From NCBI RefSeq assembly GCF_900114495.1, contig NZ_FOZI01000004.1, positions 186,001 to 250,000 on the forward strand: a stretch of DNA of 64,000 bases. Direction: 5' to 3'. Positions within the stretch are counted from its first letter, which is position 1; each line of letters opens with the position of its first letter. Shown one piece after another: positions 14,353 through 44,242 of the stretch. Below the pieces are notes generated by a model. It did not search any database and had not been told where the DNA came from. It was given only the letters and a program-made list of their open reading frames with translations. The stretch comes from Dyella sp. OK004. Lineage in GTDB: Bacteria; Pseudomonadota; Gammaproteobacteria; Xanthomonadales; Rhodanobacteraceae. The position numbers were made by a program, and so were the translations under genes.

Positions 14353-14365
14353 GGCGCCACCTGAC

Positions 14366-17333: not shown

Positions 17334-17359
17334 GGCGTGATACTCCGTGCAAAACCATC

Positions 17360-17868: not shown

Positions 17869-17883
17869 CGTGGATGCGAATCA

Positions 17884-19134: not shown

Positions 19135-20234
19135 GTGGGCGCCTCGTCGATCGAGTGCGTGCGGTGGACGGTGGGATAGCTCATCAGGTGCGGCATGGTC
19201 AGCATCGCGGCGAACCAGCCCAGGCCCATATTGCGTTCCACCGGCAGACGGTTGAGCGCGTAGCGGTTGCTCTCGGGGTGCGGGTTGGTGCCGGAGATAT
19301 ACGCGCAGGCCAGCTCGTAGCCGGCGGCGCGCGTGGTTTCGATCACCCGGGCATTGAAGGCGCGGTCGCCGCCCACCGGGTAGGACATCAGCATCGGCGA
19401 CGGGCCCAACTCGCGGTCGAGCGTGGCTTTCGAGTGGCGCACTTCATAGGCCAGCTCGGACGGCGGCAGCTTGGACAGCATGCGGTGGTGCACGCCATGC
19501 GAACCGATCTCGAAACCCGCCGCATGCATCTCGCGCACCTGCGCCCAGCTCATCGGCAGGCAGTCGGCCGGCGCGGTGCCGGAGGGCATCTGCCACTCGT
19601 CTTCCAGCCGTGCGATCAGCGCCGACTGCGCGATGGCGTCCAGTTCCTTCATATACGTCAGCACGCTGCCGGCCAACGCGCGGCGTTCCGTGCGCGACGC
19701 CGGCAGCGGCATGTCGATGCCTAGCTCCGGCAGCCGTAGCCGTTCGGCGCGGGTGCGCAGGATCATGTGCACCACCCAGTCGTAGGCATACGGGCGGCCG
19801 CTGTCGATATGACCGGTGGAGACAAAGAACGTGGCCGGCACGCCGAGCTCGCGCAGGATCGGAAAGGCGATGCGGTAGTTGTCGATGTAGCCGTCGTCGA
19901 AAGTCACCACCACCGTGTCGGCGGGTACTTCCTTGCCGGCGTTGATCAGTGCAGCGACATCGCTGAGCCGCATCGGCAGGTAGTGCTGCTTGAGCCACTG
20001 CATCTGCTGGCGGAATTGCTGCGGTGTGGCGCTGATCAGTTCCAGGTCGAAATCGAAATGCTCGGGGTCGGGCAGCTCCATCACGCGGTGGTAAGCCAGG
20101 ATGCGCAGATCCTTGCGCCACCACGAGCGCATCCGCTGCAGCGAATGCAGCAGGCCGCTGCTGTAGCACAGCTCGCCCAGCCGCCCACGCAGGCCGGCCG
20201 GACGTCCACTGTCTTGCGCCTGGATCATCACCAT
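19122..20234 (-). CDS. NodB-type polysaccharide deacetylase
   Basis: About 370 residues. Motifs ILAYHRVMELPDPEHFD, VVTFDDGYIDNYRIAFPIL, ATFFVSTGHI, FEIGSHGVHHRMLSKL and PMLMSYPVGGDRAFN form a complete NodB-like site (TFDDG, SHGVHH). This is the type associated with EPS clusters carrying Wzy. Start choice: ATG at 20234 (seven-base overlap with the upstream gene) or ATG at 20228 (one-base overlap). No signal peptide. Confidence 0.88.
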   Translation of the reverse strand: MVMIQAQDSGRPAGLRGRLGELCYSSGLLHSLQRMRSWWRKDLRILAYHRVMELPDPEHFDFDLELISATPQQFRQQMQWLKQHYLPMRLSDVAALINAGKEVPADTVVVTFDDGYIDNYRIAFPILRELGVPATFFVSTGHIDSGRPYAYDWVVHMILRTRAERLRLPELGIDMPLPASRTERRALAGSVLTYMKELDAIAQSALIARLEDEWQMPSGTAPADCLPMSWAQVREMHAAGFEIGSHGVHHRMLSKLPPSELAYEVRHSKATLDRELGPSPMLMSYPVGGDRAFNARVIETTRAAGYELACAYISGTNPHPESNRYALNRLPVERNMGLGWFAAMLTMPHLMSYPTVHRTHSIDEAPTCSR

Positions 20235-21358
20235 AAATGCAGCCCCCGGTTGCGGGCGAAGGCGATCAGTGCCTGCGCGGCGAAAAGGTTGAGGTAATAG
20301 AACGCCATCGCCAGGCGCACCGGCAGCCAGCGGCCCAGCATCGGCAGCAGGCGGCCGGCGATCACCAGCAAGGCGCCGGCGATCAATGCGGCCAGCGTCA
20401 GCGCGCACACCAGATGGCGCGTCACCAACAGCGCGGAGGTCGCGGCCAGACCCAGCAACAGCCACGGCGCCAGCAGGCGCAGTAGCTTGTGGCTGACAAA
20501 ACGGAACCACAGCGGATTGCGCCACGGCGACAACAGCCAGGGCGCCAGCTGGATCAGCTGGCAATTGCCGGCGAGCGTGCGGATCTTGCGGCGGCGCTCT
20601 TCCATCGGCTGCTGCGACAGCCGGTCCCACGCCAGCGCGCGCGGCTCGAACACCACACGGCGGCCGCTCGACACCACATGCATCGGGATCAGCACATCGT
20701 CCAGCACTGTGCCGTGCGGAATCGGCCAGTACAGTTCGCGCCGCAGTGCGTACAGCGCGCCGCTCACGCCGACGGTGGAGCCGGACTGGCTTTCGGCGTA
20801 GCGGATCAGTTTCTCGTAGCGCCAGTACGCATCCACCCCGTGCGCGAAACCGGTCCGCGCATCCGCCAGCAGCAATTCGCCGCTGACCGCGCCGACGTTG
20901 GGATCGCCGAGGTTGGCGACCAGTTCGCGCAAGGCGATTGGGGCCAACTTCTGGCGCACGTCGGTGAACAGCAGCACCTCACCTTGCGCGCTGGCGATGG
21001 CGTCGTTGAGGCAGGCCGCTTTGCCGCGGCGCGCAACGTATTTCAGTACGCGTACGCGCGGGTCGCCGAAGCGTTCGGCGAGGCGCGCGGTGGCGTCGCG
21101 GCAGCCGTCGCAGGCGATGATGATTTCGATGCGGTCGCGCGGGTAGGCGAGGGTGCCGAGGTTAGCGAGTTTGGCCTGGATGTAGTGAGCGCCGTCGTGG
21201 ACGGCGATGACGATGGAGACGGTGGGGGTGATGGGTTGTTTGTTGATGGGTTGTGGGCGCAGGCGGGCCTGGAGCCAGATCCATGCGGGGTAGCCGATGA
21301 AGACGTGGAGGAGGAGGAGGGTGCAGGTCCAGTAGGTGGCGTAGGCGAGGGTGCTCAT
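20228..21358 (-). CDS. Membrane glycosyltransferase family 2
   Basis: 376 residues. An N-terminal helix (ATYWTCTLLLLHVFIGYPAWIW), then the GT2 domain with SIVIAVHDGAHYI, IIACDGCRDAT, a modified DxD region in LLFTDVRQKL, and QPMEERRRKIRTLAGN resembling the QxxRW-type region. Three to four C-terminal helices follow. It resembles cellulose-synthase/HAS-like processive enzymes in outline, although here it may add a single sugar. It opens the block GT2, deacetylase, Wzy. Confidence 0.87.
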   Translation of the reverse strand: MSTLAYATYWTCTLLLLHVFIGYPAWIWLQARLRPQPINKQPITPTVSIVIAVHDGAHYIQAKLANLGTLAYPRDRIEIIIACDGCRDATARLAERFGDPRVRVLKYVARRGKAACLNDAIASAQGEVLLFTDVRQKLAPIALRELVANLGDPNVGAVSGELLLADARTGFAHGVDAYWRYEKLIRYAESQSGSTVGVSGALYALRRELYWPIPHGTVLDDVLIPMHVVSSGRRVVFEPRALAWDRLSQQPMEERRRKIRTLAGNCQLIQLAPWLLSPWRNPLWFRFVSHKLLRLLAPWLLLGLAATSALLVTRHLVCALTLAALIAGALLVIAGRLLPMLGRWLPVRLAMAFYYLNLFAAQALIAFARNRGLHLW

Positions 21359-21370
21359 GGGCTGCACCTC

Positions 21371-21930
21371 TCTGTTTTGCTCCCTCTCCCCTTGGGGGAG
21401 AGGGGAGGGGTGAGGGGTGGGTGCTCGCGACATCCTTTCCTACTCGTCATCCCTGCGTAGGCAGGATGAGCGCGTAGCGCGAAGAACGCCCGTAGGGCGG
21501 CCCCGGAGGGGTGAGCAAAGCGAATCATCCAGTAGTGAAGCGCTTCGATGTTCGCGTTGTTGCAACCGGGTTCGCCTGCGGCGAGCTTTCGTCCTCCTGC
21601 CGGAGGCCGAGTCACTTTTCTTTGCTTGCCCAAAGAAAAGTAACCAAAAGAAAAGGCACCCCGGTTGCGCGCTCTCCGGGCTTCGCCCTCCGAGTCCGTG
21701 AGGGTTGGCCGGGCTTTTCGACACGACGTCCCTGTCGTGTCGAAAAGGCGCAGGCATCCCTGCCTGCGCCCCCTTCGGGGCCTGATCGTCCAACCCTCAC
21801 CGCTCCACAGGGGACCCGTCACGGGCTCGCTTGCGCATCGCCCAACACGAGCAACAGCAACTACTCCCTCTCCCCTCCGGGGAGAGGGTTGGGGTGAGGG
21901 GTGGGTGCTCGGGATAGCGTTACAACTGTG
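21371..21930. repeat. Long intergenic repeat, family A, copy 3 (fills gap)
   Basis: This lies between the NRPS gene and the GT2 block. Its main palindrome (21715-21746) differs from copies 1 and 2 on both arms at matching positions: TTTTCGACACGAC pairs with GTCGTGTCGAAAA. The second hairpin is again rebuilt from other bases (GGCGCAGGCA-TCC...TGCCTGCGCC). The ACTTTTCTTT/AAAGAAAAGT repeat has the short loop here (GCTTGCCC). Two copies of the C/G-rich end hairpin bracket the element. The remaining bases to 21997 hold nothing recognised. Confidence 0.85.
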
Positions 21931-21997
21931 CAACCCAAAGTTGGCAAGCCAACTCCTGCGTGTATCGGCCATCCCCCATGGCATTGAGCGGCTCATC

Positions 21998-24900
21998 TCA
22001 CCGCCTCCCGAACAACCCGCGCAGCTTCTGTCCGAGTGATTCGCCTTTGTCTGTTTTCGCCGGTGCGTTATCCAGCTCGGCCGCCAACGTACCGAGACTG
22101 CCGTTGGCGATGTCGAGGAGGTTGAGGCGGATGCCGGTCTCTTGCTGGACGCGGGTGGCCATTTCCACGGCGAGGAGGGAGTGGCCGCCGATGTCGAAGA
22201 AGTTGTCGCTGGTGCGGATTTGGTCGACGTCGAGCAGCGTCTGCCAAATCGCGGCGAGGCGCTGTTCGCTTGTGGTTTTGGGTGTGGCGGCGACGGGTGA
22301 CGCGCTGGCGGCCGGTTCGCTTTCCTCGTCGGAGGTGATGAGGCGGTTGCGAAGGGTCTGGATACCGGCTTGGGTATGCAGCGTTCCGATGGTCTGCTGT
22401 GGGTTCTCGCCGATGCGGGTCATAAGGCTGAGGTAGTTGTCGCGCAGGAGGCGGGCGGTGTCGGCTTCGAGGATGTCGGCGTTGTAGGTGACGCCGCCGA
22501 GCATGCCCTTGGTGTTTTCCAGGAACCACAGGCCGAGGTCTTCGGTGGCGCCGCTCTGGAACAGCAGGATCTGTTCGTGGCGCAGGCCGCCCCAGTCGAC
22601 GATGCGCTGGCGTGCGTCCTGGAAGGAGAACAGGGCCTGGTAGAGCACGGCGCCGTTGCCATGCTCGCTACGCAGTTCGCGCTGCAGGTATTCGAGAGGG
22701 ACGTCGGGGTAGCCAAAGCTTTCGATGGCGGCGGCTTTGACCTGGCGTACGAAGTCGATGAAGGGCAGTGCCGGGTCGACGCTCATATGCAGCGGCAGCA
22801 GATTGTTGAAGTAGCCCATGACGGACTCGACTTCGGTCTGGTTGCGCGCACGCACGGGTGTGCCTACCACCAGGTGTTCCTGGTCGGCGACGCCGCTGAG
22901 CAGTACGTAGTACAGCGCCAGCAGGGTCATGTTGAGGGTGGCGTCGGCCTGGCGCGCGACCTCATGCATGGTGTCGGTGACGGCCTTGTCCACGCGGATC
23001 CATTCGGTGCGGCCGACGCCGGACATGCCAGGGCGGCGCGGATGGTCGGTGGGCAGGGCGCGCGTGGTGGCGACCTGGGTCAGGCGTTCGCGCCAGAATG
23101 CGAGTTGTTCCTGGAACTGCGGGCCTTGCAGCCACTGTGCGTGCCATGCGGCGAAGTCGCCGTAGCTCACCGGCAGCGGCGGCAGCGGCGAGGGTTTGCC
23201 TTCGGCGAAGGCGCGGTAGATCTGCGACAGCTCGGCGTAGAGGATGTCGAACGACCAGCCGTCCCAGATGATGTGGTGCGGCATGAAGAAGAACACGTGT
23301 TCATCGGCCGCCATGCGGAACATGCGTGCGCTGAACAGCGGTGCGCGGGTGAGGTCGAACGGGGTGTCGGTGAGCATGCGCAGGCGCTGCATCAGCACCG
23401 TCTCGCGCTCGGTTTCCGGCAGCGCGGAAAGATCCTCGGCCGGGAACAGTTGCAGATCGACCTGCTCGTGCACCACCTGCACCGCTTCATCGCCATGGTG
23501 CTGGATCGAGGTGCGCATGCTGGGCTGGCGCTGCATCAGTTCCTGCATGGCGCGCTCGAACGCGGCTTCGTCCATCGGTCCGCTGAGGCGGTGCGCGGAG
23601 GGTGCGTTGTAGGTGACGCGGCCGGGCTGCAGTTCTTCCAGCGCCCACAGGCGCTGCTGCATCAGCGACAGCGGAGCACGGCTCTGGTTATCGCGACGCA
23701 GGATTGGCGCGGCGACATTGGCCTTGCCGCTGGCGCGTTGCTGGTCGATGGCGACGGATAGCGCTTCGATGGTGGGCGCATCGAAAAGGGTGCGGAAGGA
23801 CAGAGTGATCTCGAACTCGCGGTTGAGCCGCGCGGTGAGCTGCGCGGCCAGCAATGAGTGACCGCCCAGCGCGAAGAAGTTGTCGCGCACATCCAGCTCG
23901 GGCAGTGCCAGTACGGTTTCCATCGCGGCGGCGACGCGGTGCTCGGTGTCGTTGCGCGGCGCCAGGCGCTCGCCGCTTGCCGCGACCGATTGCACCGGCG
24001 GCGCAGGCAGCGCCTTGCGGTCGATCTTGCCGTTGGGCAGCAGCGGAATCACCTCCAGCATCATCAGGTGCTGGGGCAGCATGTATTCGGGCAGGCGCTG
24101 TTTTAGGCGCGCCTGTAGTTCGTTCTCATCCAGACGGGCGCCGTCGCGCGGTACTACGTAGGCGACCAGACGCACGTCGCCGGAGCGGTCTTCACGCGCC
24201 AGCACGACGGCGCGTGCCACGCTGGGGATGTCGGCAAGCACCGCTTCGATCTCGCCGAGTTCGATGCGGTAGCCACGCACCTTCACTTGGAAATCCAGCC
24301 GGCCCAGATGTTCGAGCTGGCCGTTGGCGAGCCAGCGGCCGCGGTCGCCGGTGCGGTACATGCGTGTGCCGGGTGTGGTGGCTAACGGATCAGGCAGGAA
24401 GCGTTCGGCGGTCAGTTCCGGGCGATTGAGATAACCCAGCGTGACGCCGGCACCGCCGATCACAATTTCGCCCGGCATGCCGAGCGGGCACGGCGCCTGC
24501 CGCTCGTCGAGGATATGCACGGTGGTGTTGGCCACCGGCTTGCCGATAAAGATGCCCGCGCGCGGTTCGGCCACGCGCCAGTACGTCGAATACACCGTGG
24601 TCTCGGTGGGGCCGTAGCCGTTCCACACTTCGCCGCAACGCTGCAGCAGGGCTTCGGCCAGATCCACCGGCAGCGGTTCACCACCGGAGACGGCGCGGAA
24701 ACCCGCGCGGCCGTTCCAGCCGGATTCGACCAGGATGCGCCAGCCGGCGGGCGTGGCCTGCATCATGCTGGCGCCACTGTGTTCCACCAGCGTGCGCAAG
24801 GCTGCGCCGTCGCGCACGTCGTCGTGATCCGCCACCACGATGGCGGCGCCCACGCTCAGCGGCAGCATCAGTTCCATAAAGGCGATGTCGAAGGACAGCG

Positions 24901-26956
24901 TGGTCACCGCCACCAGGCGGTCGTCGGCACCGATGCCGGGCACGCGCTGCATGCTGGTGAGGAAGTTGGAGGTGCTGCGGTGAGGCACGCGCACGCCCTT
25001 GGGGCGGCCGGTGGAGCCGGAGGTGAAGATCACATAGGCGACGGAGTCGGGCGCGGCTCCGGTTTCATCGCGCGGCAGGCGCACGTCGCCGGCGGCGTCA
25101 ATCTCCGCCGCATCGCGTTGCAGTGACAGCACGTGCGAAGCTGGATAGTCGAATGCCGTGGGCACGACATCGTCCACCACCAGCGCAGCAAGCGCGGCGT
25201 CCTGCGCCATGAAGGCCAGGCGATCGGCAGGGAAACAGGGGTCGAGCGGCACATAGCCCGCACCGGCTTTCAGCACGGCGAGTACGGCGGCGACCATATC
25301 GGCACCGCGCTTTAGCGACAGACCCACCAGTGCGCCGCGACCCACGCCGCGTGCGCGCAGCACGTGGGCGAGGCGATTGGCGCGCGCTTCCAGCGCCGCG
25401 TAGCTCATGGGCGTGTCGCGATGGATCACCGCGGTGCGCGCGGGTGTGAGGTCGGCCTGCTGTTCGAAGTACTCATGCGCGAGCTGCAGCTCGGGATACG
25501 GGGTGGGTGCCGCTTGCAGGGACTGCAGCGCATCACGCGCTTCCGCGGACAACAGGCCGAGCGCATAGGCAGCTTCGTCCGGCGTCGCGATAGCGCTGCG
25601 TAGCAGAGTCTCGTACGCATCCAGCCAGCCGCGGATGGTTTCCGCGCGGAACAGATCGCAGTTGTACTGGCACTCCAGCCGCACGCCGCCTTCCACCTGC
25701 ACGGCGTTGACGAACAGCTCGAAGTTTTCGAACGCGCGTGGATTGCCGGCGAACTCGAAGCTCAGTCCCGGGAAGGTCACCGTGCGCTCATCCAGCGCCT
25801 GATCCAGATTGAACAGCACGCTGACCAGCGGCAGCCGGCTCGGGTCGCGCGGCAGTGCCAGGCGGGCGAGCAGGCTGCCTAAGGTGTACTGCTGATGCTC
25901 AAAGGCATCGAGCAAATCACCGCGTACCTGCTTGAGCGCATCGGCGAACGGCGCCTGCGCGTCGATCGACACGCGCAGCGGAAGCACGTTGACGCAATGG
26001 CCGACCAATGCATCGTGACCGCCCGCGGCCTGACCGGCGGAGGGAATGCCGATCACCACATCGTCCTGCCCACTCAGGCGCTGCAGCAGCAGACCGAAAC
26101 CCGTCAGAAGACTGGCGTAGAGGCTGGTGCCGCGTGTGGCGCCCATGCGCTTGAGCTCGCCGATCAGCGCGGCGTCCAGCGTGCGGTCTTCGCGTTGAGA
26201 GGCGAAGCTGCGCTGGCGCGGGCGGACGCGATCGGTGGGGAGGTCCAGCGACGGACTGCAGCCGCCGAAGCGCTGCAGCCAGTACCGCTCGGCGGCGCGG
26301 CCGTCGGTGCTCTGTGCATGCGCGGCCTGGTCCAGTGCGAACTGGGAGAACGGATCGGCCGGCGCAGGCGCGTCGCCATGGCTTCTGTGCTGCGCATAGA
26401 GCGCGGCGAGATCGCGCACAATCACACCGAACGACCAGCCGTCGCAGATGATGTGGTGCGCGGTGAGCACCAGCAGATGGTCCTGCGCGCCGAGGCGCAG
26501 CAGTTCGGCGCGCAGCAGTGGGCCGGCTTCCAGATCGAATGGTTCGGTCACGACGCGTTGCAGGGTGGCGGCGATGTCGGCATCGCGCGCCGTCTGATCG
26601 AGCGCACTCAGGTCGCGCAACGGGCAAGGCAGGTTGAGCTGGGCGGCGATATAGAGTTCGTCGCCATCTATGCTCAGGGTGGAGCGCAGTGCTTCGTGGC
26701 GGTCGGCCAGCCCCTGCACTGCGGCCTGCAAGGCGCTGACATCCAGTGGGCCGTGCAACCGCAGCGAGATCGATTCGTTGTAGGCCAGCGACGCTTCGCG
26801 TTCGAGTTTGGCGGCGAGCCAGATCTCGCGCTGCGGCGCCATCGCCGGCACCACGCGGGCCAGCGTCGCACCAGCGAACGGGTCGTAGTCCACCGCTACC
26901 GAAGACGGCGCCACGGCAGATGGTGCCGCTGCGCCCGACATCTCATGCGCGCTCAT
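21998..26956 (-). CDS. Nonribosomal peptide synthetase, C-A-T-C-T, no thioesterase
   Basis: 1652 residues. C1 (about 30-460) has an intact HHIICDG (167-173). A domain (about 495-985): FTSGSTGRPKG, NGYGPTETT, YRTGDRGR, RGYRIELGEIE, NGKIDRKAL. The ten specificity positions read D690, I691, M694, Q733, V756, G758, G780, V788, Y789, K977. T1 has Ser1034 in GGHSLLA. C2 (about 1085-1540) has HHIIWDG (1227-1233). T2 has Ser1593 in GGHSLLA. The protein ends GLFGRR with no thioesterase, reductase or further A domain. Its start overlaps the upstream PKS/NRPS gene by four bases, so the two form one line. The closest familiar substrate code is the glycine type, but only about half the positions match. 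Confidence 0.95.
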   Translation of the reverse strand: MSAHEMSGAAAPSAVAPSSVAVDYDPFAGATLARVVPAMAPQREIWLAAKLEREASLAYNESISLRLHGPLDVSALQAAVQGLADRHEALRSTLSIDGDELYIAAQLNLPCPLRDLSALDQTARDADIAATLQRVVTEPFDLEAGPLLRAELLRLGAQDHLLVLTAHHIICDGWSFGVIVRDLAALYAQHRSHGDAPAPADPFSQFALDQAAHAQSTDGRAAERYWLQRFGGCSPSLDLPTDRVRPRQRSFASQREDRTLDAALIGELKRMGATRGTSLYASLLTGFGLLLQRLSGQDDVVIGIPSAGQAAGGHDALVGHCVNVLPLRVSIDAQAPFADALKQVRGDLLDAFEHQQYTLGSLLARLALPRDPSRLPLVSVLFNLDQALDERTVTFPGLSFEFAGNPRAFENFELFVNAVQVEGGVRLECQYNCDLFRAETIRGWLDAYETLLRSAIATPDEAAYALGLLSAEARDALQSLQAAPTPYPELQLAHEYFEQQADLTPARTAVIHRDTPMSYAALEARANRLAHVLRARGVGRGALVGLSLKRGADMVAAVLAVLKAGAGYVPLDPCFPADRLAFMAQDAALAALVVDDVVPTAFDYPASHVLSLQRDAAEIDAAGDVRLPRDETGAAPDSVAYVIFTSGSTGRPKGVRVPHRSTSNFLTSMQRVPGIGADDRLVAVTTLSFDIAFMELMLPLSVGAAIVVADHDDVRDGAALRTLVEHSGASMMQATPAGWRILVESGWNGRAGFRAVSGGEPLPVDLAEALLQRCGEVWNGYGPTETTVYSTYWRVAEPRAGIFIGKPVANTTVHILDERQAPCPLGMPGEIVIGGAGVTLGYLNRPELTAERFLPDPLATTPGTRMYRTGDRGRWLANGQLEHLGRLDFQVKVRGYRIELGEIEAVLADIPSVARAVVLAREDRSGDVRLVAYVVPRDGARLDENELQARLKQRLPEYMLPQHLMMLEVIPLLPNGKIDRKALPAPPVQSVAASGERLAPRNDTEHRVAAAMETVLALPELDVRDNFFALGGHSLLAAQLTARLNREFEITLSFRTLFDAPTIEALSVAIDQQRASGKANVAAPILRRDNQSRAPLSLMQQRLWALEELQPGRVTYNAPSAHRLSGPMDEAAFERAMQELMQRQPSMRTSIQHHGDEAVQVVHEQVDLQLFPAEDLSALPETERETVLMQRLRMLTDTPFDLTRAPLFSARMFRMAADEHVFFFMPHHIIWDGWSFDILYAELSQIYRAFAEGKPSPLPPLPVSYGDFAAWHAQWLQGPQFQEQLAFWRERLTQVATTRALPTDHPRRPGMSGVGRTEWIRVDKAVTDTMHEVARQADATLNMTLLALYYVLLSGVADQEHLVVGTPVRARNQTEVESVMGYFNNLLPLHMSVDPALPFIDFVRQVKAAAIESFGYPDVPLEYLQRELRSEHGNGAVLYQALFSFQDARQRIVDWGGLRHEQILLFQSGATEDLGLWFLENTKGMLGGVTYNADILEADTARLLRDNYLSLMTRIGENPQQTIGTLHTQAGIQTLRNRLITSDEESEPAASASPVAATPKTTSEQRLAAIWQTLLDVDQIRTSDNFFDIGGHSLLAVEMATRVQQETGIRLNLLDIANGSLGTLAAELDNAPAKTDKGESLGQKLRGLFGRR

Positions 26957-29900
26957 GCGCTCACCCTCATGTACTTGCCCGGCGCTTCCGGGTTCGGCAC
27001 GAACCAGGCCGGATGGCCCTCGGCGTCCTTGCCGAGGCGCGCACCGGTAACTGGCGGACGGCTGGCGTCGAACGCCAGCGCTTCGACGTTCTTGTGGCGC
27101 GGCAGGAATTCGGCTTCCTGCAGTTCAAGTACGGATTCGCGGAAAGCGTTGGTGATCGCGGCGAAGTCCTGCTCGCTATGCGCGGTGGTGAAGAAGCACG
27201 GGAAGTTATCCAGCACGTGGATACCGCGGCTGCGCATCATGGCGAACAGCAGCTCTTGTAGCGGATGGTCTTCGGTGAAGCCGACCTTCCACACCGAGGC
27301 GAAATGCACCAGCTTGATCGGCGCACCCACACTGGCGCAGAACGCGTTGAGCCCGTCGATGAACGCACCAGTGCGCGCGTTGAGCCGCTCCTGAAGGGCC
27401 GAACCGTTGGCCTTGAGATGCGTGAGTACCGCATGCGCGGCCGCGAGAGCCAAGGGGTGGCGCACGAAGGTGCCGGCGAAATAGGTGACACCCACCGTCG
27501 GAATGGAGGCATCGCCGTACTGCCAGCCGCCACCGTCCAGCGCATCCATGTATTTGCGCTTGCCGGCGATCACGCCGATCGGGAAACCGCCGCCGACTAC
27601 CTTGCCGTAGGAGGCGAGGTCGGCGTCGATGCCGAGCACCTGCTGCGCGCCGCGCGGATGCGAGCGGAAGCCGGTGACCACTTCGTCGAAGATCAGCAAC
27701 GCACCGGCGTCGCTGGTGATCGCACGAAGTTCCTTGAGGAATTCGCGCGGCTGGAAATCCGGCCGGCGGCTCTGCACCGGCTCGACCAGCACGGCGGCGA
27801 TGGTATGTGCGCGCTCGCGGATGATCGCCAGCGATTCCGGTGTGCCGTAATCCAGCACCAGCACGTTCTCGGAGGTGTTGCGCAGGATGCCCGGCGCGGC
27901 CGGCACCGAGTGCAGCTTCTTGGTACCGCGCACGATCACTTCGTCGAAGATGCCGTGATACGAGCCGGTGAAGATCACCAGCGTGTCGCGCCCAGTGACG
28001 GTGCGTGCGATGCGCACGGTGCCCATCACCGCTTCGGAGCCGGTGTTGCACAGCGCAGCGCGGTCGAAGCCAGTGAGTTCGCAGATCTGCTCGGCGACTT
28101 CGCCGGCCAGCGGATGCTGCGGGCCGATCTCGTAGCCGGCATCCAGCTGCTGGCGCACCGCGTCGAGCACAAAGTCCGGCTGCCAGCCGAACAGATTCAT
28201 GCCGAAGCCGTTGAGGGCGTCGACGTATTCGTTGCCGTCCAGGTCCCACACGCGCGAGCCCTTCGAGCGCTCCACCACGATCTGGTAGATCATTTCCTTC
28301 AGCAGCGGGCGGAAGCCGTTGACCACGCGCGGGTCGGCCAGGTGTCCGCGATGCTTGGTGGTGTATTCCTTGGAGCGCCGCGTGCGCTCGATATAGCGGC
28401 GCATGAAGGCATCCAGCCGCGCGCGCTGGCGTTCGCTCAGTTCGGTCTGGGTGGAATGGATGCGCGCGATGGCGCCGAAGGCTTTCTTGACGTCGTAGGT
28501 GGTGTGCGCGAGCGCGGCTTCCTCGTCCTGCGTGGGAGCTTCAGCCGTCATAGCAGTTGCAGCCGGCGCGGCGGAAGGTACGGGTGCCGCAGGCGCAGCG
28601 GCAGCCATGGCCGGCATGGGTGCCGCTGGCATCTGCATGCCCGCACCGGCAAGCAAGGCCAGTTGCTGCTGCATGATCAGCATCTGCTGCTGGATCACCT
28701 GTTGCATCGCGCTGCCGCCGGCCATCGCCATCATCGGCATGGTGGCGGCCATCGGCACTGCGGCCTGAGTAGGTGTGGCAGGGGCGGCCGGTGCGCTAGT
28801 TTCCGGCGGCAACAGTTGATCGATATGCATGGCGAGTCGCTCGAAAGAAGAGAAGGACTCCATCAGCTCGCGGAAGGTGATCTTCAGCGCAAAGGTCTTT
28901 TGCAGCTGCAGGGCCACCTGGGTCAGGGCCAGCGAGTCGAGGCCGAGTTCGACGAAGTGGGCGGCGGGATCGGTCCCGGCGAACTCGGTGCCGGCGACGT
29001 CCTCGAACAAATCGGTGAGCTGGACGATCAGGCGCCCGCGACGGTCATTGCCGGCGCTGGCGCCGGAGAGGTTGGCTTCCATGGGGCTCTCCGCAGGAGG
29101 TGCTGGTGGTGCGAGGTAGGTGACGGTGGCGAGCGGCGCCGCCGTGATGGCAGGGGTCTCGATCGCAGCAGTGACGCCGGGGCGGGCGTCGATCCAGTGG
29201 CGCTTGCGCTCGAACGGATAGGTGGGCAACCGCACGCGCAGCTTGCGCTGGCGATGGTCGAGCGCGGCAACATCCAGTGGCGCGCCGAGACTCCACAGTT
29301 GGCCGGCCGCATCCAGCCACGCGGCGTGCTCGCTCTCAGGCGCATCGGCCAGCGAAGGCAGCGCGATGCGGCCGCGGCTTTGCGGGTGCTGGCGTAGCAA
29401 GGTGGTGAGCGCGGCGCGCGGGCCGACTTCGAGGAACGCGTGTGTGCTGCCGTCGAGCAGTTGCGTGACGGCGGACGAGAAGCGCACGGTGCCGCGCAGG
29501 TGACGGGTCCAGTAGTCGGCCGAGGTCGCTTCCGCGTCGCTGAGCGGGTTGCCGGTGAGCGTGGAGATGATGGCGATCGACGGCGCGGCCAGCGTGATGT
29601 CCGCGACTTCGCGGCGGAACGGTTCCAGCGCGGGATCCATCATCGCGGAGTGGAACGCGTGCGAGGTGTGCAGCAGGCGGCTGGCGATGCCGGTGCCTTC
29701 GAGCTCCGCGCGGAAGGCCTCAACGCGCGTGGTTTCGCCGCTGACCACGCAGGCGTTTGGCGCATTCTCGGCGGCCAGTTGCAGGTAGGCGGGCAGGCGC
29801 GCGGCCAGTTGGTTGGCGTCCAGCCGCACCGACAACATCGAGCCGGCCGGCAGTGCCTGCATCAGGCGTCCGCGCCGCGCGACCAGGCGCGCGCCGTCGG

Positions 29901-32900
29901 CGAGGCTCATCACGCCGGCGATTACCGCCGCTACGAATTCGCCGACGCTGTGGCCGACCATCGCCACCGGGCGGATGCCCAGGCTCATCCACAGTCGCGC
30001 CATCGCGTATTCGATGGCAAAGGTGGCGGGTTGAGTTAACGAGGTCTCACGCAGCGCATCAGCGTCGTCGGCGAACAGCCGCTCGCGCAGGTCGAAGCCC
30101 AGTTCACCGGCCAGGGTCGCCGCGACGTCGTCCAGGGCGGCGTGGAACGCGGGTTCGGCGGCGTACAGTGCGCGGCCCATGCCGGCGTACTGCGAACCTT
30201 GGCCGGGGAACAGGAACGCGATGCCGGGCGCCGGTTGCGCCGCGGCGCGCACGGCAGGTGCCGCGCCAAGTTTTTCGATGGCTTCTTCAACGCTGCCCAC
30301 CACCACATGCAGGCGCTGCCCGAAAGCTTTACGGCCGGCGGCGAGGGTATGCGCCACGTCGGCGAGATTGACTGTCGGTTCGTCGGCGAGGTGCTGGCGC
30401 AGTCGCGCAGCAGCGTGCGCGGCGGCTTCCGGCGAACGTGCCGACAACAACAGCAACTGTCCACCGGTGGCTTCATCGGAAGCGGTGCGGCAAGGCGCTT
30501 CTTCCAGAATCACATGCGCATTGGTGCCGCCCACGCCGAACGAACTGATGCCGGCACGCAGCGGACCTTCTCCGTCCGGCCACGCGCGCAGGCTGTCGTT
30601 GACCACGAACGGCGAATGCGCGAAATCGATCTTGGGGTTATGCGCGCTGAAGTGCAGCGACGGTGGCAGCTGGCGTTCGCGCAGCGACAGCGCGGTCTTG
30701 ATCACGCCCGCCACGCCCGCGGCCATTACCGTATGGCCGACATTGCTCTTCACCGAGCCCACCGCGCAGAAACCGCAGTCGTCGGTGTGCTGGCGGAAGG
30801 CCTGGGTCAGGCCTTCGATCTCGATCGGATCGCCCAGCGGCGTGGCGGTGCCGTGGGTTTCGACATAGGAAATGGAGCGCGCGTCGACACCGGCATTGTC
30901 CAGCGCCATGGTGATCACGGCGGCCTGGCCGGCGCTGCTCGGCGCGGTGAAGCTGGCCTTGATGCCGCCGTCGTTGTTCACCGCCACGCCGCGGATCACC
31001 GCAATGATGGCGTCGTCGTCGCGCTGTGCGTCGCTCAAGCGCTTCAGCAGCACCGCGGCGGCGCCATCGCTGAACACGGTGCCGCGCGCATCGACATCGA
31101 AGGTGCGCGTGTGGCCGTCCGGCGACAGCATCGAGCCTTCCTGCGACAGGTAACCGCTGCGCGGCGGACAGCTCACCGACGAACCGCCGGCCAATGCCAT
31201 GTCGCACAGCCCTGCGCGCAGCGCCGCCACCGCCTGGCAGATCGCCACCAGCGAGGTGGAGCAGGCGGTGTTCATGCTGATTGCCGGCCCGGTGAGGTTG
31301 AGCTTGTGCGCTACACGCGTGGCGAGATAGTCCTTCTCGTTGGCCAGCATCACCTGGAACGCACCGAACTTCTCGATCAGGTCCGGCCGCGTGCTGAGAT
31401 GGCGCTGGAAGTAGGTGGCGTTGTGCATGCCGCCGAACACGCCGACCGGCTGCTGCTGCGCATCCGGCACATAGCCGCCGCGCTCCAGGCATTCCCAGCA
31501 CAGCTCCATGAACAGGCGTTGCTGCGGGTCGGTCAGCTCGGCTTCGCGCGGTGACATGCCGAAGAAGGCGGCGTCGAACAGCTCGACGTCGTCGATCACG
31601 CCGCGTGCGGCCACATAGTCGGCGTCATGGCGTTCGGTCAGCGCAATCGACGGATCGAGTCCATCGTTGCCGAAGAAGGTGATCGACTCGCGACCCTCGC
31701 ACAGGTTCTGCCAGAACGTTTCGACATCGCGGGCACCCGGCAGGCGCGCGGCGGCAGCGATGATGGCGATGGGTTCGGCCTGGTCGGCGCCTTTGCCGCG
31801 CCCGATGCGCGCAGCGAGTGCGGCGCGGCGATCGGCCTTGCCTTCGATAGCAGCGGCCAGCGCGGCCGGGGTGGGGTCGCCGAAGAACAGCGGGATGGTG
31901 GGAATCGTCGACAGCTCGGCATGGATGCGCGCTACCGTCTTTACCGCCAGCAGCGAGTGGCCGCCGAGGTCGAAGAACTGATCGTGGCGGCCGACCTGAT
32001 CCAGTCCCAGCATGTCGGCGAACAGCGCGCACAGGCGCTGCTCGAGCGCGCCTTCCGGCGGGACATAGGCATCGGCGAGTTCGGGTCGGCGGCGGTCCGG
32101 CGCCGGCAGTGCGCGGCGGTCCAGCTTGCCGTTGGTGGTGACCGGCAGCGCGTCGAGGCGCAGGTAGATCGCCGGCACCATGAACTCCGGCAGCGCCTGC
32201 GCAAGCTGCTCGCGCAGACGGCGTGCGGTGACGCTGTCGTGCTCGGCGACGTAGTAGGCGACCAAACGCTTCTGGTCCGGCCGATCCTGTCGCGCCAGCA
32301 CCGCACAGGCGCGCATGCCGTCGAGGCGTTGCAAGGCGGCTTCGATTTCGCCGAGCTCAATGCGATAGCCGCGGATCTTCACCTGATGGTCGGCGCGACC
32401 GATGAATTCGATCACGCCTTCCGGCAGCCAGCGCACCAGATCGCCGGTGCGGTACAGGCGTTCGCCGTCGGCAGTGAAGGGTGCCGGCACGAAGCGCTCG
32501 CAGGTCAGCTCGGGACGGCCGAGATAACCGCGCGCCAGGCCCGCGCCGCCGATATACAGCTCGCCCGCCACGCCGACCGGTACATGTTCGCCACGCGCGT
32601 TCAGTACATGCAATGTGGTGTCGGCGATCGGGCGGCCGATCGGCACCGAGCGCAGCCCCTCAGCCAGCGCGCGCGGAATGGGATAGGTGGTGGAGAACGT
32701 GGTGCATTCGGTCGGACCGTAGCCGTTGAAGATGGTCACGTCGGGCAGGGCGGCATAGGCCTTGCGCACATGCGCCACTGATACCGCCTCGCCGCCGATC
32801 AGCAGCTGGCGCAGGCCGCGCAGCTTGCTGGCGTCGTCGTCGACGATGGCGTTGAACAGTGCGGCGGTGAGCCAGGCGATACGCGCATCGTGCGTGCCGA

Positions 32901-34164
32901 TAGTGCGCGCCAGGCCGCAGCCGCTGGGAATTTTTTCGTCGTGGATAATGCAGGTGCCGCCGTTGAGCAGTGCGCCCCAGATCTCCAGCGTTGACGCGTC
33001 GAAGCCCAGCGGTGCCGCATGCAGCAGGCGCGGATGGTCGTCGAGATCGACGTAGTCGACACCGCACACCAGGCGGATGATCGCGCGGTGCAGGATCTCG
33101 GTGCCCTTCGGCGTGCCGGTGGAGCCGGAGGTGTACATCACATAGGCGAGCGCGCCGCCGTCCAGCGTGGGGGGCGATGTCAGCGGCTCGCCCGACGCCA
33201 GTTGCGACATCGTCAGCGTCGGTACGTCGATACCTTGCAGCGTGGCTGCGCCTTCGGGCGCGATCACCAGTGCGGCATGCGCGTCGTTGATGGCGAAGGC
33301 GAGGCGTTCGGCGGGGTGGCTGGCATCGAGCGGCAAGTACGCTGCACCCGTCTTGAGAATGCCGAGAATGGCAACGATGGCTTCCGCGGAGCGCTCCAGC
33401 AGCAGGGCCACCGGCGCACCGATGCCGACACCGGCGGCGAGCAGACTGGCAGCGACGCGGTTGGCGCGCGCATCGAGTTCGCTGTAGGAGAGCGATCCAT
33501 CGCGCCATGTAATGGCTGTGAGATCAGGATGCTGCTGGACGCGGGCGGCGAACAGACCATGCACGGTGTCGCTTGCCTGACGTGGAACGGCAGTGGCGTT
33601 CCAGTGATTGAGCAGCTGGTCGCGTTCGGCGGGATCGAGGATGTCGATGGTCGCCAGCGTTTCGTCGCCCGGCGTTGCGAGTGCGATCAAGGCGCGCTGC
33701 GCGCAGCGGGCGAACAGGTCGATGGATTCGGCGTGGAAGGGCGAGCGGAAACGCACATGCAGGGTCTGCCCCGCGAGCGACCAGATACTGGCGCTGTCGT
33801 CGTCCGTGATTCCGGTGTCGTCTGCGGTCCATGCATGGCGGCAGCTTGCTTTGTTGCCGCGTGCATCGCGTAACGCAGCCAGCCATTCCGCGCGCGTGGC
33901 GTTGCGCGGCACCGTGACGAGTGTCTGGGTGATGTCGTCGTTCACGCCACGCGTCGCGACGACGGTGTCGGCTCCCGTGAGCAGCGATTCGGTCAGTGCG
34001 AGCGCGGCATACAACAGGTCATGGTTCAGCGCGTGCACGCGGTCGAGTGCGTAGTCGCGAGATTGCCAGCCGGCATCGGTGATGTCGGTGCGGGTCGGCA
34101 GCACATCGAACAACCGCATGGCGGCAGTCTCGACATCCTGGATTTCGGCCATGCTCGCGTTCAT
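26953..34164 (-). CDS. Hybrid NRPS/PKS with aminotransferase: A-T-KS-AT-T-AMT
   Basis: 2403 residues. Residues 1-190 resemble the tail of a condensation domain without HHxxxDG. A domain about 195-690 (YTSGSTGTPKG, NGYGPTECTT, NGKLDRRAL; code D389 A390 L393 W431 L455 G457 G481 T489 F490 K680). T1 Ser737. KS about 795-1225 with Cys968 (TACSTS), His1104 and His1144. AT about 1310-1600 with Ser1406 (GHSVGE) and HAFH (1502-1505), the malonyl-CoA signature. ACP Ser1744. A Met/Ala/Pro/Gln-rich linker to about 1880. Class III aminotransferase about 1915-2350 with Lys2188 for PLP. No KR, DH or ER. The last 50 residues match the linker that in McyE-type proteins joins AMT to C, so the line is split exactly there. 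Confidence 0.95.
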   Translation of the reverse strand: MNASMAEIQDVETAAMRLFDVLPTRTDITDAGWQSRDYALDRVHALNHDLLYAALALTESLLTGADTVVATRGVNDDITQTLVTVPRNATRAEWLAALRDARGNKASCRHAWTADDTGITDDDSASIWSLAGQTLHVRFRSPFHAESIDLFARCAQRALIALATPGDETLATIDILDPAERDQLLNHWNATAVPRQASDTVHGLFAARVQQHPDLTAITWRDGSLSYSELDARANRVAASLLAAGVGIGAPVALLLERSAEAIVAILGILKTGAAYLPLDASHPAERLAFAINDAHAALVIAPEGAATLQGIDVPTLTMSQLASGEPLTSPPTLDGGALAYVMYTSGSTGTPKGTEILHRAIIRLVCGVDYVDLDDHPRLLHAAPLGFDASTLEIWGALLNGGTCIIHDEKIPSGCGLARTIGTHDARIAWLTAALFNAIVDDDASKLRGLRQLLIGGEAVSVAHVRKAYAALPDVTIFNGYGPTECTTFSTTYPIPRALAEGLRSVPIGRPIADTTLHVLNARGEHVPVGVAGELYIGGAGLARGYLGRPELTCERFVPAPFTADGERLYRTGDLVRWLPEGVIEFIGRADHQVKIRGYRIELGEIEAALQRLDGMRACAVLARQDRPDQKRLVAYYVAEHDSVTARRLREQLAQALPEFMVPAIYLRLDALPVTTNGKLDRRALPAPDRRRPELADAYVPPEGALEQRLCALFADMLGLDQVGRHDQFFDLGGHSLLAVKTVARIHAELSTIPTIPLFFGDPTPAALAAAIEGKADRRAALAARIGRGKGADQAEPIAIIAAAARLPGARDVETFWQNLCEGRESITFFGNDGLDPSIALTERHDADYVAARGVIDDVELFDAAFFGMSPREAELTDPQQRLFMELCWECLERGGYVPDAQQQPVGVFGGMHNATYFQRHLSTRPDLIEKFGAFQVMLANEKDYLATRVAHKLNLTGPAISMNTACSTSLVAICQAVAALRAGLCDMALAGGSSVSCPPRSGYLSQEGSMLSPDGHTRTFDVDARGTVFSDGAAAVLLKRLSDAQRDDDAIIAVIRGVAVNNDGGIKASFTAPSSAGQAAVITMALDNAGVDARSISYVETHGTATPLGDPIEIEGLTQAFRQHTDDCGFCAVGSVKSNVGHTVMAAGVAGVIKTALSLRERQLPPSLHFSAHNPKIDFAHSPFVVNDSLRAWPDGEGPLRAGISSFGVGGTNAHVILEEAPCRTASDEATGGQLLLLSARSPEAAAHAAARLRQHLADEPTVNLADVAHTLAAGRKAFGQRLHVVVGSVEEAIEKLGAAPAVRAAAQPAPGIAFLFPGQGSQYAGMGRALYAAEPAFHAALDDVAATLAGELGFDLRERLFADDADALRETSLTQPATFAIEYAMARLWMSLGIRPVAMVGHSVGEFVAAVIAGVMSLADGARLVARRGRLMQALPAGSMLSVRLDANQLAARLPAYLQLAAENAPNACVVSGETTRVEAFRAELEGTGIASRLLHTSHAFHSAMMDPALEPFRREVADITLAAPSIAIISTLTGNPLSDAEATSADYWTRHLRGTVRFSSAVTQLLDGSTHAFLEVGPRAALTTLLRQHPQSRGRIALPSLADAPESEHAAWLDAAGQLWSLGAPLDVAALDHRQRKLRVRLPTYPFERKRHWIDARPGVTAAIETPAITAAPLATVTYLAPPAPPAESPMEANLSGASAGNDRRGRLIVQLTDLFEDVAGTEFAGTDPAAHFVELGLDSLALTQVALQLQKTFALKITFRELMESFSSFERLAMHIDQLLPPETSAPAAPATPTQAAVPMAATMPMMAMAGGSAMQQVIQQQMLIMQQQLALLAGAGMQMPAAPMPAMAAAAPAAPVPSAAPAATAMTAEAPTQDEEAALAHTTYDVKKAFGAIARIHSTQTELSERQRARLDAFMRRYIERTRRSKEYTTKHRGHLADPRVVNGFRPLLKEMIYQIVVERSKGSRVWDLDGNEYVDALNGFGMNLFGWQPDFVLDAVRQQLDAGYEIGPQHPLAGEVAEQICELTGFDRAALCNTGSEAVMGTVRIARTVTGRDTLVIFTGSYHGIFDEVIVRGTKKLHSVPAAPGILRNTSENVLVLDYGTPESLAIIRERAHTIAAVLVEPVQSRRPDFQPREFLKELRAITSDAGALLIFDEVVTGFRSHPRGAQQVLGIDADLASYGKVVGGGFPIGVIAGKRKYMDALDGGGWQYGDASIPTVGVTYFAGTFVRHPLALAAAHAVLTHLKANGSALQERLNARTGAFIDGLNAFCASVGAPIKLVHFASVWKVGFTEDHPLQELLFAMMRSRGIHVLDNFPCFFTTAHSEQDFAAITNAFRESVLELQEAEFLPRHKNVEALAFDASRPPVTGARLGKDAEGHPAWFVPNPEAPGKYMRVSA

Positions 34165-35112: not shown

Positions 35113-35120
35113 CAGCGCTT

Positions 35121-36056
35121 TCAGGCGTCGGCTTCTACGGGCGCCAGCATGCGGTGTACACGCTGGCCGATTCGCGCCAGATTGCATTTGGTTTGGTCGA
35201 TGAGTGCGCTTTTGCCGATGGGGCGTGGGTGTAGGCCGAGTTTGCGCAGCCTTGCATTAAACCGATGCGCATCGGTCCACATGTCGGATTGTCTGGTGCG
35301 GAAGGTGATGGCGAGGGAGATGGAGAGGTTGGGGCCGGTGTGGACGCGGTGGGGGGCGATGAAGGGGTGGTGGACGCCTAGGCCGGGAGCCAGTTGGTAG
35401 GTCATGGCTTTGGCTTCGAAGTCGGGGCTGTAGCGGGGGCGGCTGCCGATGCGGGAGAGGAGCAGGTCTTTTTGTTCGGGGCTCATGATGTCGTCGTCGT
35501 CCTGGTCCCACAGGTGCACGGTTTTGGCGCCGCGGATCTGCAGCAGGAAGTTCATTTCGCGGTCCATGTGGTACGGCGTGACGGCGTCGCGGGTGGAGAT
35601 GAAGATGTAGGTGGAGTACCAGCTGATCCACGGATCCATGGGGTCAATCTGTGCGGCGACTTCGCCGAGCAGGCCTTCGATGATGGGTTGGTATTCGGGA
35701 TCGCGCTCGGGGTTGTTGATGCAGATGTAGGCCTGGCGTTCCACGAAGTGGTCGAGGGTATCGGCGAGAGTGAGGTCGCGTTTGTAGCGGTCGTAAGAGG
35801 TTTCGAGTTCGGCGTCGCCGGGGATGTTGCCGACGCGGAACAGGATCTGTTCCTGCGGCATGCGGCGGCACAGGGTGAACAGCGAGTCCAGCGAGAACAG
35901 TGGATGGGCGGTGAGCTGGTGTTGGACCAGGAACGGTTTGCGGTTGTAGCTGCTGCGCATCACCTCGGGTTCGAAATGCAGCAGGGCGGCGCTGCGGTGC
36001 TGGCCGCGCGCGAGCAGTTCGGTGTAGTTCTCGGCGGAAACGAATCGGCCCAGCAT
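35121..36056 (-). CDS. JmjC/cupin-type Fe(II)/2-oxoglutarate oxygenase-like protein
   Basis: 311 residues, no signal peptide. The cupin_8/JmjC core has the metal motif H163-x-D165 (VTPYHMDREMNFLLQIRGAKTVHLW) and a distal His at 236 or 239 in APHRVHTGPNLSISLAI. The family hydroxylates proteins or small molecules using iron and 2-oxoglutarate. It lies between the NRPS operon and the initiating sugar transferase, each side separated by gene-free DNA or a short spacer. It could tailor the peptide, for example by hydroxylating an amino acid, or modify another product of the locus (inference). Confidence 0.8.
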   Translation of the reverse strand: MLGRFVSAENYTELLARGQHRSAALLHFEPEVMRSSYNRKPFLVQHQLTAHPLFSLDSLFTLCRRMPQEQILFRVGNIPGDAELETSYDRYKRDLTLADTLDHFVERQAYICINNPERDPEYQPIIEGLLGEVAAQIDPMDPWISWYSTYIFISTRDAVTPYHMDREMNFLLQIRGAKTVHLWDQDDDDIMSPEQKDLLLSRIGSRPRYSPDFEAKAMTYQLAPGLGVHHPFIAPHRVHTGPNLSISLAITFRTRQSDMWTDAHRFNARLRKLGLHPRPIGKSALIDQTKCNLARIGQRVHRMLAPVEADA

Positions 36057-38564: not shown

Positions 38565-38672
38565 CCGACTTCCCCTTGTGTTCGACCCGGATGCGGCGAG
38601 AGATCCGTCCGGCATGGTGAGGCTATGCCGTTGGGTTCTTGGGTGTCGATGTAACTTAGGTAAGAGTTGGGG

Positions 38673-38690
38673 TAGGCCGTAGGGGGGTTG
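38673..38690 (-). promoter_or_regulatory. Motif shared by two EPS promoters, copy 1
   Basis: On the minus strand it reads CAACCCCCCTACGGCCTA, about 110 bases before the sugar transferase start. Except for one C it is identical to the motif before the nucleotide-sugar dehydrogenase gene (44243-44259). The match lies outside the repeat elements. It is probably a regulator binding site or promoter element, but the protein is not identified. Confidence 0.4.
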
Positions 38691-38735
38691 CCATGTGGGT
38701 GTTGCGGGGGTGATACATGTTTTGTTTTTTTCTCT

Positions 38736-44128: not shown

Positions 44129-44242
44129 ACGAACACCCTGTTCGCGGGTTGGACTGCTGGGCGGTTGTTGCCGGACGGCGCCCGGTTGGGGGCGGCTGTG
44201 CGTGGTGGGCAAAGGCTAGCAGGGTGGGGGGTGGATGCCTGA

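Follow-up and report, generated by a model that had tools for sequence, protein, structure and literature searches.

A hybrid nonribosomal peptide synthetase/polyketide synthase line is linked to an exopolysaccharide locus in Rhodanobacteraceae and may decorate its polymer

Introduction

The closest described systems to the locus reported here are the exopolysaccharide (EPS) loci of the XrtA/PEP-CTERM type. The locus lies in a 64,000-nucleotide stretch of Dyella sp. OK004 (contig NZ_FOZI01000004.1, positions 186,001 to 250,000), called the window throughout, from a genome of 4.96 Mb in 8 contigs (G000, locus L126), and it contains a nonribosomal peptide synthetase (NRPS)/polyketide synthase (PKS) line of two genes, NRPS1 and NRPS2, set inside an EPS gene block. 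It resembles XrtA/PEP-CTERM loci in its sugar transferase, export and chain-length proteins, in distant relatives of their hydrolases 1 and 2, and in the amidotransferase and AMP ligase of those related backbones that have no NRPS (genome G009, with a ligase near ligase_PEP_1, and genome G034). It differs in the two-gene NRPS/PKS, in hydrolases that score below the family cut-offs and in having no exosortase. The Dyella sp. OK004 genome passes the models for export (TIGR03027, 200.8 bits against a cut-off of 180) and chain length (TIGR03007, 377.8 against 278.85); the tyrosine autokinase (TIGR03018) reaches 169 bits, under its cut-off of 230.65, and exosortase PF09721 has no match in this genome. 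The backbone is classed as XrtA-like rather than as a complete XrtA system because three models, including that of the sugar transferase, pass while the kinase cut-off and the exosortase fail.

Hybrids of the type of microcystin McyE and mycosubtilin MycA load a fatty-acyl or aryl starter. A first-pass annotation of the window likened the line to these enzymes, and the likeness holds for the order ketoacyl synthase (KS), acyltransferase (AT), carrier (T), aminotransferase (AMT); the window AMT scores 421 bits against the aminotransferase of MycA (6kfm). NRPS1 itself begins with an amino-acid-type adenylation (A) domain, and the two also differ in the end of the line, here a condensation (C) domain and a carrier without a thioesterase, and in the EPS setting. 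Capsule loci with PKS-like or fatty acid synthase-like proteins (RkpA, WcbR) and mycobacterial glycopeptidolipid loci likewise combine thiotemplate and glycan enzymes in one locus; they are set apart by what they make, a lipid or lipopeptide part.

Vibrio cholerae polysaccharide (VPS) bears amide-linked glycine, and the available part of the report describes a single amino acid and mentions no NRPS (PMC11637428). By analogy, VPS is a precedent for an amide-linked amino acid on an EPS and counts in favor of polymer decoration by the line described here. The sheath glycoconjugates of Leptothrix and Sphaerotilus were also considered as a precedent and set aside, the available part of the source holding nothing usable (PMC11087309). 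Searches of the open-licence literature, which are no proof of absence, brought up no paper that describes an NRPS as a regular component of EPS loci in these bacteria. The combination of NRPS with EPS, and a hydrolase pair as its putative release or transfer device, look new; the enzymes themselves are of known kinds.

Results

A complete NRPS/PKS line within the EPS block

Two coupled genes with the layouts A-T-KS-AT-T-AMT and C-A-T-C-T had been read from the sequence; both are present at the positions given for them, their reading frames share 4 bases and Pfam agrees with the layouts. NRPS1 contains AMP-binding (residues 205-548), ketoacyl synthase (797-1172), acyltransferase (1317-1595) and class-III aminotransferase (1961-2275) domains and two PP-binding stretches. 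NRPS2 contains two Condensation stretches, one AMP-binding and two PP-binding. Pfam detects no thioesterase domain in NRPS2; its terminal A domain is absent and its C-terminal tail is basic. The N-terminal A domain of NRPS1 fits the amino-acid adenylation model TIGR01733 (417 bits against a cut-off of 317), and an aryl substrate may also be possible despite this match and a Val-like code. The active-site motifs are present in the window proteins, namely the KS cysteine, the GHSxGEF and HAFH motifs of the AT, the AMT lysine, the carrier serine and HHxxxDG in both C domains. The HAFH motif is of the malonyl type. Among NRPS1 relatives the KS cysteine is present in 77/78, the AT serine in 78/78 and the AMT lysine in 78/78, as counted from the commonest motif strings, the one uncounted KS not having been seen.

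The gene map and the Pfam and NCBIfam assignments also bear out the placement of both genes on the same strand between the initiating sugar transferase and a GT2 glycosyltransferase/deacetylase/Wzy block. The phosphopantetheinyl transferase (PPTase), GMC oxidoreductase and JmjC-type protein that had been assigned to the same run are all there, the last slightly below its cut-off. In the direction of transcription, the NRPS genes are preceded by the dehydrogenase, epimerase, GMC oxidoreductase, PPTase, EpsB_2 sugar transferase, Sec240 and JmjC genes, and are followed by the GT2, deacetylase, Wzy_C, PaaK-like, three GT4, two more deacetylase, Unk444 and formyltransferase genes. The EpsB_2 gene is the sole PF02397 (Bac_transf) match in the genome. 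Genes for Wza, chain length, the kinase and Wzx are not in the window; they lie on the same contig, some 45-54 kb ahead of where it starts. This export half (Wza, chain length, kinase, outer-membrane protein, hydrolase pair, Wzx) sits close behind the NRPS half in several relatives, including G025 (L129) and G018 (L130).

The line and the EPS backbone co-occur across the family

An orthologue search of 61 genomes found ten besides Dyella sp. OK004 at 1118 bits or more (56-77% identity), and the next best match was 897 bits with 39% identity. Eight orthologue loci were read over 40 kb. Seven have a sugar transferase and an EPS block around the NRPS genes in broadly the same order (one of these, G010, without GT2 and ligase matches); G028 is the exception.

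Co-occurrence was counted in 147 Rhodanobacteraceae genomes, an evenly drawn sample from a larger group. An NRPS1 orthologue was called at 968 bits or more, the next group reaching at most 676 bits, and the orphan protein Unk444 served as the marker of the EPS backbone (EPS+ genomes). The orthologue is present in 51 genomes and Unk444 in 55, and 45/51 orthologue genomes have both. The two genes share a contig in 40 of these 45; Unk444 is then always downstream (40/40), at 13-39 kb, and on the same strand in 39/40. The comparison of related genomes that the first-pass annotation proposed thus yields conserved co-occurrence of NRPS and EPS genes.

This orthologue or a divergent AMT-type NRPS is found in 49/55 EPS+ genomes. 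Ten EPS+ genomes have no orthologue, and four of them (genus g4) carry a divergent AMT-NRPS 14-15 kb upstream, which in G008 is a single frame of 3280 amino acids. Four of the remaining six were read (G009, G034, G122, G030), and in each the backbone is present and the NRPS missing. An AMP-ligase homologue occurs in 3/4 of these backbones, the stretch from G030 ending early. Two of the four were annotated: G009 encodes an NAD-synthase-like protein, an amidotransferase resembling asparagine synthase and an AMP ligase (362 bits for ligase_PEP_1, under the cut-off of 592), and G034 an Asn_synthase/GATase protein and an AMP ligase by Pfam. A collagen-like protein is encoded near the sugar transferase of G009 (L113-L114).

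Six orthologue genomes have no Unk444. The NRPS genes of G006 and G031 lie on short contigs, G121 and G153 retain Sec240 (together with Ugd, the epimerase and a Wza-like gene in G153), and the other two, G028 and G151, are of genus g24. Insertion of the NRPS block at unrelated sites had been named as the observation that would speak against the association. It was found in g24 alone (G028, L076/G151), where the line has a fused thioesterase and lies outside the backbone block. Even so, on the G028 contig that carries the line, matches to Wzx and Wza are 27 kb and 41 kb from it; a 31% identical deacetylase homologue is about 15 kb away and the sugar transferase 199 kb away.

Unrelated NRPS loci served as the control. 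Ten genomes contain 21 condensation-domain loci, grouped at 30 kb, and 13 Bac_transf genes. Nine EPS-block NRPS loci lie 9.4-14.7 kb from a Bac_transf gene. None of the 11 unrelated loci, nor the G028 orthologue, has one within 50 kb, or the contig has none at all; some of these draft contigs may be short, and a sugar transferase on another contig would be missed. The proximity of NRPS and EPS genes is therefore not due to chance, as the control loci lie far from sugar transferases. AMT pairwise distances correlate with those of the sugar transferase (Mantel r = 0.82, n = 36), Wzy (0.66, n = 31), the deacetylase Deac1 (0.54, n = 31) and Sec240 (0.53, n = 34), and 0/999 permutations gave a value as high, a shared divergence that is expected from shared inheritance and falls short of proof for shared function.

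Sec240 and a hydrolase pair accompany the line

Sec240, a predicted secreted protein, occurs in 45/147 genomes. Within the 55 EPS+ genomes it is present in 41/45 with an NRPS orthologue and in 0/10 without one; G021 and G083 have Sec240 with neither the orthologue nor the EPS marker. Searches of Pfam, PHROG and PDB profiles gave no family match for Sec240. One internal TAG stop is present in the copies at G135:C1:2246664 and G156:C1:3057405.

The second partner is a pair of α/β-hydrolases, hydr1 and hydr2. The NRPS pair of Variovorax paradoxus VAI-C is located beside genes for a PPTase, two hydrolases, Wza, Wzc and a sugar transferase, and the two hydrolases behind NRPS2 are near the NCBIfam families 'hydrolase 2' and 'hydrolase 1, exosortase A system-associated', below their cut-offs. 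A TIGR03101 search of 14 genomes gave 73-92 bits near Wza in 9/9 genomes whose EPS block contains an NRPS, whereas four EPS+ genomes without an NRPS and G028 reached no more than 33 bits; 0/14 pass the cut-off. The pair has the gene for the outer-membrane protein on one side and the next gene on the other, in G025 a TIGR03016-like gene and galE respectively, and the Dyella sp. OK004 hydr2 gene is G000:C7:135913-136686. For the four NRPS-less loci, G028, G151, and Variovorax RA8 and WDL1, the stretches that were read contain no homologue of hydr1 or hydr2.

Searched with a hydr2 alignment, 61/147 genomes encode hydr2: 49/51 with the orthologue, 11/15 with a divergent AMT-NRPS and one with no AMT-NRPS. 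The last is G162, a 77% complete assembly in which a 19-kb contig holds the backbone and the pair. Within EPS+ genomes hydr2 is present in 49/49 with an AMT-NRPS and 1/6 without. The two orthologue genomes that lack it, G028 and G151, both have a fused PF00975 thioesterase (111.9 and 119.9 bits). Among the genomes listed for genera that show both states (g1, g5, g6, g9, g18, g19, g22, g26), the line and hydr2 agree in all save G001.

Both proteins were read at 44 loci. In hydr1, Cys occupies the nucleophile position in 44/44, and the Asp and His residues are conserved in 44/44 (pattern Cys, Asp, Asp, His). The corresponding position of hydr2 is Arg in 43/44 and Gly in 1/44. A cysteine nucleophile is known in acyl-transferring α/β-hydrolases such as polyhydroxyalkanoate synthase and some NRPS thioesterases. 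Neither N-terminus has an apparent signal peptide by eye.

At the sequence level, the NRPS/PKS genes, an XrtA-like backbone, Sec240 and the hydrolase pair occur together in Rhodanobacteraceae. The conclusion that NRPS and EPS form one system in this family is well supported because position and strand are fixed, divergence is shared, the partner genes follow the NRPS and other NRPS loci are unlinked.

Adenylation codes predict a short, variable product

Adenylation codes were read at the Stachelhaus positions by alignment to the window A1, with some species counted twice under genome (G) and locus (L) handles. A1 reads DA[LF]W.GGTF, near the Val code, in 58/78, a Pro code in 9 and a Thr code in 3. 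A2 is mostly DIMQVGGVY or near the Gly code DILQ.G..W, with Ser codes in 4/88, and intact A3 domains read Gly codes. From these codes the line would therefore give a short peptide. The predicted product would be one amino acid, malonate-extended and aminated, plus one or two small residues.

The terminal A3 domain could be scored in 83/89 rows: 26 intact, 22 decayed and 35 absent (L068 was scored absent though degenerate A3 pieces were seen). A quick method puts the number of changes on the AMT tree at 13 or more. Loss of A3 leaves C2 and T4 in place. Members of the Dyella-Luteibacter group have a C2 with 70-81% identity to that of the window, and their decayed A3 domains are 39-54% identical to the A3 of G025; the window AMT groups with Dyella in the AMT tree. 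In one Dyella group C2-A3-T4 diverges strongly from its neighbors (C2 about 50% against about 79%), which likely reflects a module swap. L037 and L039-L043 are Dyella species with an intact A3 and a C-A-T module unlike that of their closest relatives. Loading of the A-less last carrier by the PaaK/CapK-like ligase was considered and dropped; the ligase also occurs with an intact A3 (G018) and in NRPS-less loci.

Relatives beyond the family

A scan of public genomes with the C-terminal 524 residues of NRPS1 returned 239 relatives, of which the best 80 were taken; 59/80 loci have both 10-kb flanks and 21/80 have short flanks. They come from Dyella, Luteibacter, Frateuria, Rhodanobacter, Pinirhizobacter, Dokdonella, Lysobacter, Pseudoxanthomonas, Luteimonas, Thiomonas, Rubrivivax, Rhodocyclaceae and unnamed assemblies. 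Queries from the window and from Variovorax picked out one or more polysaccharide genes in 51/59 full-flank loci. A window-type block (Deac1/Wzy) is present in 31/59 and two α/β-hydrolases behind NRPS2 in 22/59, and no full-flank locus has both inside its flanks. The PPTase gene is beside the hydrolase pair in L090 and L074, and genes for a UDP-GlcNAc 2-epimerase and for Wzz-like and kinase-like proteins are immediately upstream in Thiomonas L110.

Pfam places PF00975 in G028, G151 and L104, and similarity adds L076, L093 and L097. L104 has the hydrolase pair as well as a fused thioesterase, the latter followed by another carrier, and L093 and L097 look similar to it. On plasmids of Variovorax RA8 and WDL1 (L030, L031) the NRPS pair is beside TIGR04325 methyltransferases, with one glycosyltransferase also in WDL1. 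A 2OG-Fe(II) oxygenase gene and copper-resistance genes are nearby on both.

Discussion

The first-pass annotation suggested a conjugate or a co-regulated product. The linkage data uphold one system of NRPS and EPS genes; a conjugate goes further and is the best reading of the genes. We put at roughly 0.55 the probability that this is a Wzx/Wzy-type EPS system with a built-in nonribosomal line that decorates its polymer. The amidotransferase and AMP ligase in two NRPS-less backbones count for this reading. So do the co-occurrence and partner-gene counts, the persistence of C2 and T4 beside a decaying A3, the hydrolase pair behind NRPS2 in public loci and the gene neighborhood of the line in Variovorax paradoxus VAI-C.

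The predicted scheme starts with A1, which would load the amino acid; the code of this domain is Val-like in the window, and some relatives have a Pro or Thr code. KS-AT would add one malonyl unit, the AMT would convert the β-keto group to a β-amine and C-A-T would add a small residue, the A2 code being close to Gly. The terminal C-T, its A domain intact, decayed or absent by species, would end the line. Since NRPS2 has no thioesterase, the cysteine enzyme hydr1, with the nucleophile-less hydr2, would take the peptidyl group off the last carrier and, ahead of export by Wzx, pass it to an amino or hydroxyl group on the lipid-linked repeat unit. The absence of apparent signal peptides from hydr1 and hydr2 would place this transfer in the cytoplasm. 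Deacetylases would free the acceptor amino groups, and Sec240 would act outside the cell on the decorated polymer. The substrates, the order of steps, the cytoplasmic transfer to the glycan and the roles of the deacetylases and Sec240 are all predictions of this scheme.

Several points weigh against polymer decoration. The NRPS-EPS linkage is observed, and we infer attachment of the peptide to the EPS from genes alone. The hydrolases fall below their models (hydr2 of Dyella sp. OK004, 91.3 against 202.75 bits for TIGR03101; hydr1 of G025, 83.3 against 168.45 for TIGR03100), and in Dyella sp. OK004 the pair, located 50 kb outside the window, is separated from the AMT by 77 kb. The four genomes with a far AMT-NRPS (G001, G032, G064 and G137; 453-532 bits) have no hydr2. 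A fused thioesterase and the pair are not mutually exclusive, because three Lysobacter loci beside a sugar transferase have both. Within 10 kb, 8/59 full-flank public loci have no recognized polysaccharide gene, one of these being Luteimonas L095, whose upstream end carries an alanyl-tRNA synthetase gene, and 6/59 have neither the window-type block nor the pair; the Variovorax RA8 and WDL1 lines have no hydrolase pair, thioesterase or EPS block within 20 kb. The genomes are related, and p-values are not independent tests. Given its repeat-filled gaps, the run may or may not be a single transcript.

The alternative that survives best, though we consider it unlikely, is that the line makes a free small peptide (a signal, chelator or matrix-binding compound) that the hydrolase pair releases and that is merely co-regulated with the EPS. 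α/β-Hydrolases can serve as trans thioesterases, and a free product from a close relative is plausible in genus g24 (G028; L076/G151), where the same line has a fused thioesterase and stands outside the backbone. Luteimonas loci, with PPTase, NRPS and pair and no recognized EPS genes within 10 kb, and the Variovorax RA8 and WDL1 lines, with no EPS block nearby, point the same way. Against a free peptide stands the fixed place of the line in the EPS backbone in all 40 same-contig family genomes. No peptide exporter, receptor or regulator is found among the annotated genes of the run, and a thioesterase was recognized in just 4/80 public loci (21/80 with short flanks). A cysteine nucleophile favors acyl transfer over hydrolysis, which for hydr1 also counts against release.

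A head group or anchor that starts the polymer or tethers it to the cell is an improbable product. PKS-like genes within polysaccharide loci are known, such a role has been proposed for RkpA and WcbR of some capsule loci, and the line and the initiating sugar transferase are close together. The codes predict a short product of small residues, however, the first A domain fits the amino-acid adenylation model and the locus has a Bac_transf enzyme to prime on undecaprenyl phosphate. That the EPS locus is a mere hot spot for an inserted cluster with no shared product is very improbable, for although the line moves, as its occurrence in Burkholderiales and on Variovorax plasmids in other surroundings implies, its place is fixed, its strand is the same in 39/40, its divergence is shared and two partner genes come and go with it, one of them in another operon.

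Polymer decoration allows a wider proposal, which we offer tentatively and hold at somewhat less than even odds. A widespread family of nonribosomal peptide-decorated EPS may exist in Lysobacterales and Burkholderiales, in which a cysteine hydrolase and a dead arginine partner form a peptidyl-carrier-to-glycan transferase; by extension, XrtA/PEP-CTERM hydrolases 1 and 2 with an acyl ligase may be a simple form of the same acylation machine. If so, a large group of bacteria from soil and water would use thiotemplate peptide synthesis in building their matrix polymer. The side chain would be modular and evolving, with a Val-, Pro- or Thr-like A1 and a terminal module that is intact, has decayed, is missing or was swapped. 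A function would be suggested for the XrtA-associated hydrolases and a new carrier-to-sugar acyltransferase would be defined, and some presumed secondary-metabolite clusters would be polymer-modification machines.

Other features of the locus

Table 1. Genes of the NRPS/EPS run in window coordinates, in order of transcription
Feature	Position	Strand	Remark
UDP-glucose/GDP-mannose dehydrogenase	42851..44212	-	
NAD-dependent nucleotide-sugar epimerase	41838..42848	-	
GMC oxidoreductase	40097..41788	-	nearest solved relatives are sugar dehydrogenases
Sfp/HetI-type PPTase	39246..40085	-	HetI model below cut-off
EpsB_2 (TIGR03013) initiating sugar transferase	37164..38780	-	562 bits, cut-off 393
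Sec240, predicted secreted orphan protein, 239 aa	36092..36811	-	signal peptide by eye
JmjC/cupin_8 Fe(II) oxygenase-like protein	35121..36056	-	24.9 bits, just under Pfam cut-off 27.4
NRPS1, A-T-KS-AT-T-AMT, 2403 aa	26953..34164	-	Pfam; A1 code DALWLGGTF
NRPS2, C-A-T-C-T, 1652 aa	21998..26956	-	Pfam; A2 code DIMQVGGVY
GT2 glycosyltransferase	20228..21433	-	
Polysaccharide deacetylase	19122..20630	-	PgaB-like stretches, below cut-off
Wzy_C / O-antigen-ligase-type polymerase or ligase	17884..19134	-	
PaaK/CapK-like adenylate-forming ligase	15981..17333	-	models below cut-off
GT4 glycosyltransferase	14860..16056	-	
GT4 glycosyltransferase	13180..14670	-	
Polysaccharide deacetylase	12542..13306	-	
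GT4 glycosyltransferase	11379..12779	-	
Unk444, conserved orphan protein, EPS-backbone marker	10195..11529	-	
Formyltransferase	9422..10504	-	
Polysaccharide deacetylase	8646..9791	-	

The JmjC/cupin_8 protein has weak matches to JMJD5 and FIH (E 0.012-0.06) and no relatives in viral contigs. A plasmid search found a 30% identical relative in two Paraburkholderia largidicola records, and the region inspected in one of them has no annotated features. Unk444 has no NCBIfam or Pfam match and a weak local PDB match to PaiB; it is 73-84% identical in 53 of the 54 other genomes that have it and 61% in one.

Related interspersed repeats of about 400 bp occupy the intergenic gaps of the run (14389-14804, 17334-17883, 21434-21997, 34691-35120, 38732-39146 and 44315-44634). 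A 401-base piece of one gap repeat has 65 full or partial matches in the genome (40/192 candidates scored). The flanks of the locus encode a LytTR-type two-component pair, two S9 peptidases and a BlaR1-type M56 peptidase (1182-3145, 4172-6412, 56959-59304, 60303-62408).

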